Of a stretch of 55,851 bases of DNA, positions 12,118-23,415 are shown one piece after another (the stretch's first letter is position 1; each line of letters begins with the position of its first letter). A program made the translations under genes and the position numbers. This stretch comes from Campylobacterota bacterium (lineage in GTDB: Bacteria; Campylobacterota; Campylobacteria; Campylobacterales; Sulfurimonadaceae). The notes under the pieces are model-generated. The model saw only the letters and a program-made list of their open reading frames with translations. It did not search any database and was not told the DNA's origin. Where the stretch lies: NCBI GenBank assembly GCA_013607635.1, contig VCAY01000005.1, positions 1 to 55,851 on the forward strand, given 5' to 3'.

Positions 12118-12297
12118 TTGAACTTCCCTATATTATTTATAAATTTTAGTAGTTAGTAGTAGGTGTAGGTGAAAATGTGAAAACATGCTACAACTAACCA
12201 AATTACGGTACTATTTTGATGTGAGAAGATTTTTTTCTCTATTCACATCTGTTCACTTCTATAATTATATCTTTTTTTTTATGCTATTGTTAAAAAT
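12118..12297. other. oriC2-like region: DnaA boxes plus AT-rich unwinding stretch between dnaN and dnaA
   Basis: A 180-bp gap with four TTCAC cores: GTGAA at 12169-12173 and 12177-12181, and TTCAC at 12242-12246 and 12252-12256. The last two are closely spaced direct repeats (CTATTCACA, CTGTTCACT). They are followed by an almost pure A/T tract at 12258-12297, a candidate DNA unwinding element. Published work on Campylobacterota origins describes bipartite oriCs around ruvC-dnaA-dnaN, TTCAC-core boxes, and unwinding in the dnaA-downstream part; this gap fits that description. Function here is inferred. Confidence 0.7.
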
Positions 12298-13605
12298 CTA
12301 AGAACAAGAAGATATTTTATGCATCAATTCATCGATTTTTACTTTAAAATCCTCATCTTTTTCGATCAGATTATTGATCTTTTTGATCGTATGGGAGATT
12401 GCCGTGTGATCTTTCATACCAAAGTACTGTGCAAGTTGCGGCATGGTGCTTTGGGTAAGTTCACGACAGATATAGATACTTACTCTTCTGGCATAAACAA
12501 TATTTTTGCTTCTTCCTTTGCTTTTGATCTCACTTGGTTTGATGTTAAGATCTTTGGCAACAATGTTGGTGATCGTCTCCATAGTAAGGTTTTGGTGATT
12601 TTCTTTGAGTTGGTCTTTAAGAACATTTTTGGTAAATTCCAAATCGATCTCAACATGCATCAGTTGTGAATAGGCATGGAGTTTAGAAAGAATACCCTCA
12701 ATCTCACGCACATTACTCTCAATAACAGTTGCGATGTAGTTAACGATCTCATCGGAGAGTTTTACTTTGTTGATCTCACATTTTTTCTTGATGATGGCAA
12801 TTTTTGTCTCTAACTCAGGTGGCTGAATGTCAGCTACCAATCCCCACTCAAACCTGCTTTGTAGTCTTGCTTCAAGTCCACCTATTTTTTTAGGGTGTTT
12901 ATCGGCTGTGAGGATGATCTGTTTGCCTGCACCCTTGAGCGCTTCAAAAGTGTGAAAAAACTCCTCTTGGATCCCCTCTTTGTTAGAGAGAAACTGGATA
13001 TCATCGATCAGCAGTACATCACACTTGCGATATTTCTCCTGAAATCTCTCCATTGTTTTGTTCTTCACATGGCGGATAAAATCGTTTAAAAACTGCTCCA
13101 CGGTTGCATAGATCACAACTTTGCCTGCATTTTGCAAAAGATTGCCTGCTGCTTGCATCAGGTGGGTTTTTCCAAGCCCAACGCCACCGTAAATAAATAC
13201 AGGATTGTAAACAATACCCGGTTTTTCACTCACACTTTTTACTGCTGCATAAGCAAACTGGTTTGATCCTCCCACCATGAAGTTGTCAAAAAGGTAAGAG
13301 GGGTTTAAAAGTGAGCTTGTTTGTTTGTTTTCAACCACTTTTTTTGTTTTTGTTCTCTCTTTGATGTTTTTTAATGTAATTGTAACCGTGACTTTATTGC
13401 CTGTTTTAACTTCAAAAAGGTGGGTAAGTTTCTCTTTGTATTTGTTTTTGATCCAGTTAACCACTAAAGCGTTGGGAGCGTAAAAGATGGCATGATCACT
13501 GGTTGATTTTTTAATATCGTAAGTAAGGTGTTTGATGTACCTGTTGTATTCAACTTCAGTAATCTCGTTTTTTAACTCTTCTAGTACTTCTTGGCCAATA
13601 TTCAC
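12298..13605 (-). CDS. dnaA: Chromosomal replication initiator DnaA
   Basis: An AAA+ initiator that binds DnaA boxes and opens oriC. Walker A is GGVGLGKT (140-147) and Walker B is LLIDDIQF. The C-terminal helix-turn-helix reads [16 protein letters not shown]. That differs from the common GGRDHTTVLHA form, as reported for this phylum and its TTCAC-core boxes. 435 aa. The start is GTG (13603-13605), and a DnaA-box-like 9-mer (13598-13606) covers the start codon, which suggests autoregulation. It is flanked on both sides by box-containing gaps. Confidence 0.97.
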
Positions 13606-13694
13606 ATTTCACTCTTTAATTTTTTATGGTATGTGAATAATAACCTTTTCATCCATAAAACAGGGTTAAACAGATGTGAATATTCAGGTATAAT
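13598..13694. other. oriC1-like region: DnaA boxes between dnaA and ruvC
   Basis: Four TTCAC cores lie in about 80 bp: TTCAC at 13601-13605 and 13608-13612, GTGAA at 13633-13637 and 13676-13680. The third belongs to a perfect TTATTCACA box on the minus strand (TGTGAATAA at 13632-13640); the fourth reads TGTGAATAT (13675-13683). The first overlaps the dnaA start codon, and the last lies just upstream of the ruvC promoter, so this element probably also regulates both genes. Together with 12118-12297 it makes a bipartite arrangement around dnaA. Confidence 0.68.
13689..13694 (+). promoter_or_regulatory. Candidate -10 element for ruvC
   Basis: TATAAT seven bases before the ruvC ATG (13702). Transcription would start at or within a base or two of the start codon, and no ribosome binding site is visible. 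This would give a leaderless or near-leaderless ruvC mRNA unless another promoter lies farther upstream. Confidence 0.45.
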
Positions 13695-19004: not shown

Positions 19005-19916
19005 GTGCCATTTGTAAAAGAAACGTTACATATAATACCAAAGCAACGATTATTTCTCTTTTTAATCAAAGAGCTAGGCTGTCCACAAAAAGAGGCGCAA
19101 AGGATCATTGCCAAAGGACGAGTTTTACAAAATGGCATACCAATCATTAAAGCTTCGCAAGAGGTTGAGGGTGAGATTGAGTTTATCTATTTTAAACCGA
19201 TTTCACGAGGACTTAAGCCGCTATGTGTAGAGGAGCAGTTTGTCGTGTTTGACAAACCAAGTGGTGTGCTTATCCATCCTCAAAACAGAAATACCCCCTA
19301 CTCTTTAGTTGATGAGCTTAAAGCGCAGTTTGGTATGGATGCTAACATTACCCACCGTATCGATCAAGAGACAAGCGGGCTCGTTTTGTGTGCGAGAAAT
19401 AAAAAAAGTGAGCGAGATATCAAGATGATGTTTCAAGAGCGAGATATGCAAAAAACCTATTTGGCTATGGTGCATGGAAAGTTTGAAAAAGAGCTCACTG
19501 TTGAAGCGCCTCTACTCCGCAGGGAGGATAACTCTGCTATTGTAAGGATGGTGATAAAAGTTGATCCTCAAGGTAAACCCTCTAAGACACATTTCAAACC
19601 GTTAAAATATTTTGACGATCTCAATATGACTTTAGTAGAGTGTAAGCCATACACAGGCAGACAGCATCAGATACGTGTGCATTTGTTTCACGTGAAACAT
19701 CCAATCGTTGGTGATCCAATCTATGGTCAAAAAGCTGAAGATATTATAAAGTTTTTAGATAAAAAGATAACACCTAAGGAAAGGGAGGTATTAAGTGGAG
19801 CATCAAGATTATTATTGCATGCTTCTGAATTGTGCTTCACGCTTTATAATAGAGAGTATCACATCAAAAGTAAAGAAGATTTTGAAAATACGGTACGAAA
19901 TTTTGTTGCAATGTGA
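19005..19916 (+). CDS. RluA-family RNA pseudouridine synthase
   Basis: Isomerises specific uridines in rRNA or tRNA. It has an N-terminal S4-like RNA-binding region (about 16-55) and the catalytic HRxD motif THRIDQETSGL with D120, followed by YTGRQHQIRVHLFHVKHPIVGDPIYG. Which uridine it modifies (RluC, RluD or RluA type) cannot be told. The start is GTG (19005) with AAGGGA upstream. Codons 227-232 (Leu-Phe-His-Val-Lys-His) contain a perfect parS 16-mer at 19684-19699. The TGA stop lies inside a TTATTCACA-type DnaA box (19912-19920). Confidence 0.92.
   Translation: MPFVKETLHIIPKQRLFLFLIKELGCPQKEAQRIIAKGRVLQNGIPIIKASQEVEGEIEFIYFKPISRGLKPLCVEEQFVVFDKPSGVLIHPQNRNTPYSLVDELKAQFGMDANITHRIDQETSGLVLCARNKKSERDIKMMFQERDMQKTYLAMVHGKFEKELTVEAPLLRREDNSAIVRMVIKVDPQGKPSKTHFKPLKYFDDLNMTLVECKPYTGRQHQIRVHLFHVKHPIVGDPIYGQKAEDIIKFLDKKITPKEREVLSGASRLLLHASELCFTLYNREYHIKSKEDFENTVRNFVAM
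19684..19699. other. parS centromere site, perfect consensus
   Basis: TGTTTCACGTGAAACA, a 16-bp perfect palindrome identical to the widely conserved bacterial parS bound by ParB/Spo0J. It lies inside the RluA-type gene, about 6 kb from dnaA, and origin-proximal placement is typical. ParA and ParB are not encoded in this window. The family of sites is well established; binding here is inferred. Confidence 0.85.
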
Positions 19917-20250
19917 ATAACTTTTATGTTATAGAATCTATATCTATAGAATATATTTATAATGATTATCAAATTTCTAAAGAAGCCCTATTTTTAGGAA
20001 CTTAAGCTTTATTTTATTTATTTTGATTAAGTCAATATTTATATAAATAAATTCTTAAATTTTGAAGAAATTTGAAAAGTTTTTCTGAATCTCTTTTATT
20101 TTTATTCACACTTTAGAACAACGTGTGAATAATACACACACAATAAAAAATGATGAGTTTTTTTGAGTATATAAAATTGATTTAAGGGATAAAGCAGAGG
20201 TTTACTAAAAAACTAGAATTAAGAAAAGTAAGGTATGATTACATTCACAG
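19912..20250. other. Cluster of DnaA-box 9-mers in an AT-rich intergenic region
   Basis: This 367-bp gap between the RluA-type gene and the small membrane-peptide gene has no gene I can support. It holds three perfect TTATTCACA boxes: 19912-19920 (minus, over the rluA stop), 20102-20110 (plus) and 20124-20132 (minus). The last two form an inverted pair 13 bp apart. A fourth core (ATTCACA, 20243-20249) abuts a terminator hairpin. Between them lie long A/T tracts (about 19921-20100). Density of perfect boxes is higher than around dnaA itself. It may be a DnaA titration/reactivation site or an additional origin element. Confidence 0.6.
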
Positions 20251-20285
20251 ATGACCTCCCTGGTGTGTTGGTCATCTGCTTTTTT
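20248..20285 (+). terminator. Rho-independent terminator, plus strand
   Basis: CAGATGACC (20248-20256), a 13-base loop, then GGTCATCTG (20270-20278) form a perfect 9-bp stem followed by CTTTTTT. It points in the plus direction and lies 330 bases after the RluA-type gene, so it ends either a long rluA 3' tail or an unannotated short transcript. A TATGAT box (20234-20239) directly precedes it. It also sits immediately past the stop of the minus-strand small ORF, where it lacks a T-tract. Confidence 0.7.
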
Positions 20286-20388
20286 AATCCTCTTTTGTAG
20301 CAGCGTAGATAAACCCGCCGGCACCCACAGCAAATACTATAACGAGTAAAATAACTTCCGCTATATCAACACCTGAAAAATCACCCAT
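20284..20388 (-). CDS. Small single-pass membrane peptide (34 aa) downstream of rlmN
   Basis: A short gene starting with MGDFSGVDIAEVILL, followed by a hydrophobic helix (about residues 10-30, ending GGFIYAA) and a charged TKED tail, so a single-span membrane peptide. The start ATG (20386-20388) lies 2 bases past the rlmN stop, and AAGGA inside the last rlmN codons is well placed as its ribosome binding site, which argues for coupled translation. No known function is recognisable. Small oxidase or transporter accessory peptides look similar in outline. Confidence 0.65.
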   Translation of the reverse strand: MGDFSGVDIAEVILLVIVFAVGAGGFIYAATKED

Positions 20389-20390
20389 AT

Positions 20391-21437
20391 CTAATCCTTT
20401 AATTTGTTTTTTGTTTTTTCTTTGAGCTGGCCACACGCAGCGCTAATGTCAATCCCTTTAGAGTCCCTTATGGTGGCAAGTAAACCGTGCTGAATAAGAT
20501 ACTCCTGAAAATTGCGCATATCTTCATAGCTTGGACGCTGATATGCAGTTCCTGGATAAGGGTTAAAATATATGAGGTTGACCTTTGCTTTGATACCTGA
20601 GAGAAGCTTGATAAGTTTTTTTGCACTGCCCAGATCATCGTTTTTGTTTTTGATCACAAGGTACTCAAACATCACCCGTTTTCTTGTATCTATGGGAAAG
20701 CGTTTGACCGCTTCGATGATTGAGTGGATATTATGCGCTTTGTTCATGGGGATCAGTTCTGTTCGTAGTTCATCATCCACAGCATGAAGCGATATAGCGA
20801 TATGCACACCTAGATCCATCTTCCCTAAAGCGTCTATCTTATTGCTAAGACCGCTTGTGCTCACTGTTTGGCGTTTACCACCGATCGCCAATCCATCTTT
20901 TTCTTGAAATATCTCTATCGCTTTAGTGAGGTTATCTAAGTTATCAAGCGGTTCACCCATCCCCATATAGACAATATTGATCTTTTTGTTGTGTGGATGG
21001 TTGTTGTCGTGTTTGAGGCTAACTACTTGTGCAACGATCTCTCCAGCTGTTAAATCTCTTGTAAAACCACCCTTTGCCGTTAGACAAAATGCGCACCCTA
21101 CTTTGCATCCAACTTGTGTAGAGACACAGATGGTGTACTTATCCTCTTTCATCTTTAGCCAGACAGCTTCAACAGTTTTACCATCTTGCAGCTCAAAAAG
21201 GTATTTTATGGTGCCATCAGAGGACTCCTCTTTGCGTACAATTTTAAGTGGATTGATAATATATGTTTGTATGAGCTGTTCTTTAAGGGTTTTTGGGATA
21301 TTTTTCATCGCATTAAAATCTTGCGCATATTGGTGATACAACCATCCATAGATCTGTTTAGTACGAAAAGATGGAGTAACGATCCGGCTTAGTTCTTGAA
21401 GTGTATAGTCATAAAGTGAGGGTTTGGTGTTAGTCAT
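20391..21437 (-). CDS. rlmN: Dual-specificity RNA methyltransferase RlmN
   Basis: A radical SAM enzyme that methylates C2 of A2503 in 23S rRNA and A37 in some tRNAs. The 4Fe-4S motif C-x3-C-x2-C is at C111, C115 and C118 (GCKVGCAFCLTAKGG), and the C-terminal methyl-carrying cysteine is C335 in ISAACGQL. 348 aa, normal. Its ATG overlaps the stop of the nucleoside-phosphorylase-like gene by 4 bases. It is followed directly by the 34-codon membrane-peptide gene. Confidence 0.97.
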   Translation of the reverse strand: MTNTKPSLYDYTLQELSRIVTPSFRTKQIYGWLYHQYAQDFNAMKNIPKTLKEQLIQTYIINPLKIVRKEESSDGTIKYLFELQDGKTVEAVWLKMKEDKYTICVSTQVGCKVGCAFCLTAKGGFTRDLTAGEIVAQVVSLKHDNNHPHNKKINIVYMGMGEPLDNLDNLTKAIEIFQEKDGLAIGGKRQTVSTSGLSNKIDALGKMDLGVHIAISLHAVDDELRTELIPMNKAHNIHSIIEAVKRFPIDTRKRVMFEYLVIKNKNDDLGSAKKLIKLLSGIKAKVNLIYFNPYPGTAYQRPSYEDMRNFQEYLIQHGLLATIRDSKGIDISAACGQLKEKTKNKLKD

Positions 21438-23399: not shown

Positions 23400-23415
23400 T
23401 GTTTCACATGAAACA
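23400..23415. other. parS-like site, one mismatch
   Basis: TGTTTCACATGAAACA differs from the parS consensus at a single central position (A for G). It sits in the non-coding gap between hisF and rsmA, about 3.7 kb from the perfect parS at 19684. A second site so close strongly supports a real centromere region. Confidence 0.72.

Follow-up and report, generated by a model that had tools for sequence, protein, structure and literature searches.

The convergent genes rluA and rlmN enclose a cluster of DnaA boxes in the window, by which we mean the whole stretch of 55,851 nucleotides that was analysed (Table 1). Three perfect copies of TTATTCACA, here called boxes D, A and B, lie where an earlier note on this DNA had placed them, and the inverted pair it described is present: A and B converge across a 13-bp spacer. 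The cluster had been assigned to a gene-free gap. This does not strictly hold, since box D overlaps the stop codon of rluA. The dnaA gene (12298-13605) lies 6.3 kb from the cluster, between ruvC and the genes dnaN and gyrB.

Table 1. Features of the rluA-rlmN region and of the dnaA region (positions in the window)
Feature	Position	Strand	Remark
dnaA with flanking boxes at 12239, 13598, 13632 and 13675	12239-13683		likely bipartite oriC; layout as described in PMC5043019
rluA	19005-19916	+	
parS-like site, perfect TGTTTCACGTGAAACA	19684-19699	+	inside rluA
DnaA box D, TTATTCACA	19912-19920	-	193 bp from the A/B pair
A+T-rich stretch 5' of the pair	20010-20100		recurring A/T tracts and a TTCTTAAA block (column profile)
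DnaA box A, TTATTCACA	20102-20110	+	
Spacer between A and B	20111-20123		conserved; consensus nnTTAgAACAaTG
DnaA box B, TTATTCACA	20124-20132	-	
Degenerate extra box TAATACACA	20130-20138	+	overlaps box B; TANTTCACA in some relatives
-10-like hexamer TATGAT of the predicted hairpin transcript	20234-20239	+	from the alignment
Hairpin CAGATGACC-TCCCTGGTGTGTT-GGTCATCTG with T-run	20248-20285	+	near-invariant loop; probable very short RNA
34-aa single-span peptide beside rlmN	20284-20388	-	conserved
rlmN	20391-21437	-	
Second parS-like site, 1 mismatch	23400-23415	+	between hisF and the next divergent gene

A chance origin of the cluster is ruled out by shuffles of the window and of the gaps. TTATTCACA occurs six times in the whole window, while shuffled windows hold 1.13 copies on average and five at most, and at the shuffle rate the Poisson probability of three copies in 221 bp is about 1.5e-8 per position. 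In the assembly as a whole (1.41 Mb in 72 contigs), 23 such boxes were counted, compared to 11 matches of a reversed control. The gap had also been called denser in boxes than the flanks of dnaA, which is correct for perfect 9-mers; when HHATTCACA is counted, the gap has four in 500 bp, the dnaA-upstream region three, and the surroundings of the dnaA-dnaN gap two. A fourth core listed with the cluster (TTCACA, 20244-20249) is private to this genome: it is missing at the same place in the 67 other gaps that hold the hairpin (1 of 68) and is therefore accidental.

Inspection of the rluA-rlmN junction in relatives was the check proposed by the earlier note, and it revealed a conserved cluster. 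Relatives were fetched via RlmN, which yielded 110 loci (with overlap, as some of L002-L030 represent the same contigs as other loci in the set); together with the window these gave 75 convergent rluA-rlmN gaps shorter than 4 kb, 69 of them distinct. The pair TTCACA-N13-TGTGAA was found exactly in 63 of the 69 distinct gaps and in none of 3,400 dinucleotide shuffles. Among the six inexact gaps, L030, which stems from another family, is without the element, and L066 has Ns beside box A. In the remaining four (L024, L042, L049, L069) position 9 of box A is the only place where the pair is altered, and the TTCAC core is kept; the same position also varies in the boxes of other species (PMC5043019).

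The alignment and the counts of third boxes, parS sites and box forms are based on 66 loci, leaving aside L030, L066 and L085 (3.6-kb gap). The spacer is nearly as constant as the boxes, and the consensus of the 66 loci reads TA-TTCACA-nn-TTAgAACAaTG-TGTGAATA-n-TACACA. In 55 of 66 loci a third, minus-strand box precedes the pair, at a distance of either 186-194 or 140-152 bp; counting gap sequence alone gives 43 of 66, compared to a shuffle mean of 0.19. Of the boxes located 165-215 bp upstream of the pair, 59 of 63 are perfect TTATTCACA.

Within the genus, the pair was detected in 117 of 135 genomes, and in 70 of the 79 good ones. We also searched 298 genomes of the phylum for the pair with three fixed spacer bases and obtained matches in 17 of 18 genomes of the same genus, in three of nine other genomes of the family and in two of 271 others, while the reversed control of this pattern matched in three of the 298. 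The exact pattern is thus missing in six of the nine other family genomes; one of the nine (G262) carries an N12 version of the pair, and another (G179) a partial element at a contig end. Our own genome contains a second, unrelated match to a looser pair pattern.

The DnaA boxes of S. denitrificans have been footprinted as HHATTCACA (Jaworski et al. 2016, PMC5043019), and TTCAC was proposed in the same work as the class-wide core. Boxes A, B and D all keep this core and largely fit the footprinted form. TTCAC is present at A and TGTGAA at B in 66 of 66 loci each, and a base outside HHA occurs in box A of 12 and in box B of 19 loci. When HHATTCACA was counted in 500-bp windows over 200 kb, the two richest windows were the dnaA region and the element gap in all six complete genomes, and in G344 the element gap, with four, was the richest. 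Judged by these motifs, DnaA is predicted to bind at the gap. A predicted third region of S. denitrificans, 'oriC3', did not bind DnaA in EMSA as described in PMC5043019; if oriC3 corresponds to the rluA-rlmN gap, a role of DnaA at this locus becomes less convincing. The objection is tempered by the topology-dependent DnaA binding in H. pylori that the same paper recalls.

The earlier note recognized a cluster that indeed turned out to be conserved, but missed the parS sites that flank it. The two sites listed in Table 1 are the only ones within one mismatch in the whole assembly. A parS site (up to two mismatches) is found on the rluA side at a distance of up to 700 bp in all 46 loci whose upstream sequence extends for 1.2 kb or more, and a second one (up to one mismatch) on the rlmN side, 1.8-3.5 kb away, in 27 of the 35 loci with at least 4.5 kb of sequence. 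Each of the 18 genomes examined has one to three parS sites within one mismatch, and in these genomes parS is near the element wherever the place of the element is known. The rluA-rlmN gap is the centromere. Rearranged genomes were also inspected. In G063 the block rluA-parS-element-hairpin-rlmN-hisF-parS is whole, and dnaA is on the hisF side of it. In G262 rlmN is no longer part of the locus, and the element is flanked by ruvC-dnaA and rluA/parS. G179 carries the hairpin and an incomplete element next to ruvC-dnaA at the contig end; no parS within one mismatch was found in this genome. Six genomes yielded one ParB each; in the five of them that are single contigs (G344, G175, G031, G011, G163) parB is about 700-800 kb away from parS.

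Besides the boxes, the gap contains a hairpin that follows a promoter-like block (TAAGAA...GGTATTAT) in 68 of 69 gaps. Its loop TCCCTGGTGTGTT is identical in 62 of these 68, and the stem is maintained by compensatory changes, one of them in our own window. With up to three mismatches allowed, the hairpin was detected in 18 of 18 genomes of the same genus, in five of nine other family genomes and in two of 271 others. It is located 62-264 bp from the pair (most commonly 126 bp) in all gaps but one (781 bp). Two genomes have the pair without the hairpin (G163, G209), and two have the hairpin without nearby boxes (G237, G330); in the latter two the match has three mismatches and lies away from parS and rluA. 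A search of Rfam gave nothing at gathering scores and one chance microRNA match (E = 1.4). A generic promoter and terminator scan, whose loop limit of 8 is below the hairpin loop of 13, reported no terminator. The conserved hairpin with its CU-rich loop is probably a so far undescribed small RNA of the Sulfurimonadaceae, and the loop seems to resemble an anti-Shine-Dalgarno sequence. The 34-aa peptide encoded next to it had no match in Pfam or NCBIfam.

Our best explanation, to which we give about an even chance, is that this is a conserved cis-element of the Sulfurimonadaceae at which DnaA would bind inside the centromere and thereby couple its own state to segregation. The fixed arrangement of boxes within a centromere suggests that, in Sulfurimonas and related bacteria, replication start and chromosome separation are wired together. 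Box D, followed by the convergent boxes A and B with their 13-bp spacer, has the parS of rluA on one side and the second parS, about 3 kb further on, on the other. DnaA would probably occupy A and B as a dimer or a short array and contact D by looping out the roughly 190 bp of A+T-rich DNA in between. Its occupancy, together with spreading of ParB from parS, could link the state of DnaA to release of the centromere or to segregation. In favour of DnaA acting at the centromere we count the conservation of the pair, the parS sites beside it, the likeness of the boxes to the footprinted form, and that the element stays with rluA and parS in the rearranged genomes G063 and G262. Against it we count the oriC3 result, the lack of the exact pattern in six of nine other family genomes, the bases outside HHA in boxes A and B, that the spacer is conserved beyond the need of two independent DnaA boxes, that parB is far from the locus in the single-contig genomes, and that the element of G179 lies beside ruvC-dnaA with no parS found.

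Direct contact between initiator and centromere is described for two systems in a review (PMC6399470), Caulobacter and chromosome II of V. cholerae, and the proposed coupling would probably resemble that by DnaA at Caulobacter parS and by RctB at V. cholerae rctA/parS2. For Caulobacter crescentus the review describes DnaA sites at parS (Mera et al. 2014), in a region roughly 8 kb away from the origin. DnaA boxes within a parS region near the origin are also what we find here, with the element 6-14 kb from dnaA. In contrast to Caulobacter, the element has three boxes with strict spacing and a conserved spacer, is flanked by parS on both sides and lies beside a hairpin, and binding is predicted. 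The rctA locus of V. cholerae (PMC3141006) is a precedent for an initiator-centromere locus and likewise combines a centromere site, initiator sites and a transcribed stretch near an origin; however, RctB is unrelated to DnaA, and rctA adjoins parAB2, while parB is remote from our element.

Several alternatives have to be weighed against binding of DnaA inside the centromere. The gap could be the working origin, as considered in the earlier note, or a third part of oriC. It is A+T-rich, its box number matches that of the dnaA-upstream region, and in four of six complete genomes the raw GC-skew minimum (searched from -30 to +20 kb of dnaA) lies no further than about 150 bp from the distal parS. 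Gene orientation also switches at the distal parS, at the same place as the raw skew minima, and can mislead origin prediction here. At third codon positions, genes of either orientation have a negative skew on the left arm and a positive one on the right in all six genomes. This skew is negative in six of six for the genes from the distal parS to the element, and also for the minus-strand genes from the element to dnaA, which resemble the left arm and not the right; the plus-strand genes of this stretch range between -0.12 and +0.04, closer to the values of the left arm. This puts the stretch from the element to dnaA on one arm in every genome, and the replication arms therefore switch near dnaA-dnaN-gyrB, in line with the DNA unwinding at dnaA-dnaN shown for S. 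denitrificans (PMC5043019). The GC-skew analysis recommended by the earlier note thus depends on the measure, the raw minimum pointing to the distal parS in four of six genomes and the third-codon-position skew to dnaA, and the latter contradicts the idea of a working origin in all six. The locus adjoins the origin but is not the arm switch itself, and we consider an origin in the gap very improbable. The element shares the box core and A+T-rich intergenic DNA with oriC1 and oriC2 of Campylobacterota, but it does not flank dnaA and, by codon-position skew, is located on the left arm.

The main rival is a DARS- or datA-like site that merely happens to be near parS, where DnaA bound head-to-head on A and B would exchange its nucleotide or be stored and so set the timing of initiation. 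The earlier note had raised this idea, and the convergent pair supports it: DARS1 and DARS2 of E. coli also have a convergent pair of boxes at fixed spacing with a third box beside it, as described in PMC5742627. Moreover, the distance between element and dnaA is 5.7-13.7 kb in the genomes measured, so the dosage of the element closely tracks initiation. The spacing and the third box differ, however. The E. coli boxes start at 0/14/26, with box I opposite to II and III, while A and B are 22 bp apart from start to start, compared to 14 bp in DARS, and the further box has the orientation of A. The essential boxes of datA point in one direction and are accompanied by an IHF site, whereas A and B converge. 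DARS-like control would also leave the pairing with parS, a neighbourhood that sets the element apart from DARS1 and DARS2, without a reason, and we regard it as unlikely. We assign a similarly low probability to the view that the boxes serve a regulator other than DnaA, or DnaA solely as a transcription factor, in controlling the promoter of the hairpin RNA. The nearly constant presence of the hairpin and its -10 region near the pair and the conservation of the spacer beyond the two boxes fit such a role. Nevertheless, the distance to the promoter varies widely, unlike that between A and B and mostly also that between D and A, the box variants keep the DnaA core, and pair and hairpin are separable, as each occurs alone in two genomes.

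Binding of DnaA inside the centromere could also be one part of a composite switch, a model that we rate as improbable. DnaA on A, B and D, ParB from parS and the hairpin RNA would together license segregation, with the RNA reporting or tuning the state, and the switch would have been built in the Sulfurimonadaceae onto a place of parS at rluA/rlmN that is common across the order. Our searches of openly licensed papers listed no description of a DnaA-box site between rluA and rlmN. If DnaA does act at the centromere, this would be a third lineage with initiator-centromere contact, and coupling of replication and segregation could be tested comparatively. The DnaA protein of S. denitrificans was purified in the 2016 work (PMC5043019), and the element provides a sharp sequence definition for searching other genomes.

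An order-wide search gave a parS match in 64 of 80 genomes. Thirty parS loci were sampled from the order, of which 21 lie no more than 1.5 kb from rluA or rlmN. Next to parS in its other families no element was found, with the exception of a single TTCAC pair, similarly spaced, close to the end of L201; the location of parS in or beside rluA/rlmN is therefore older than the boxes. In other families, boxes near parS are not clearly enriched (eight TT[AT]TTCACA in 87 kb). Sites in rluA or beside rlmN were seen in many families of the order (L195-L224), which suggests a widespread centromere position.
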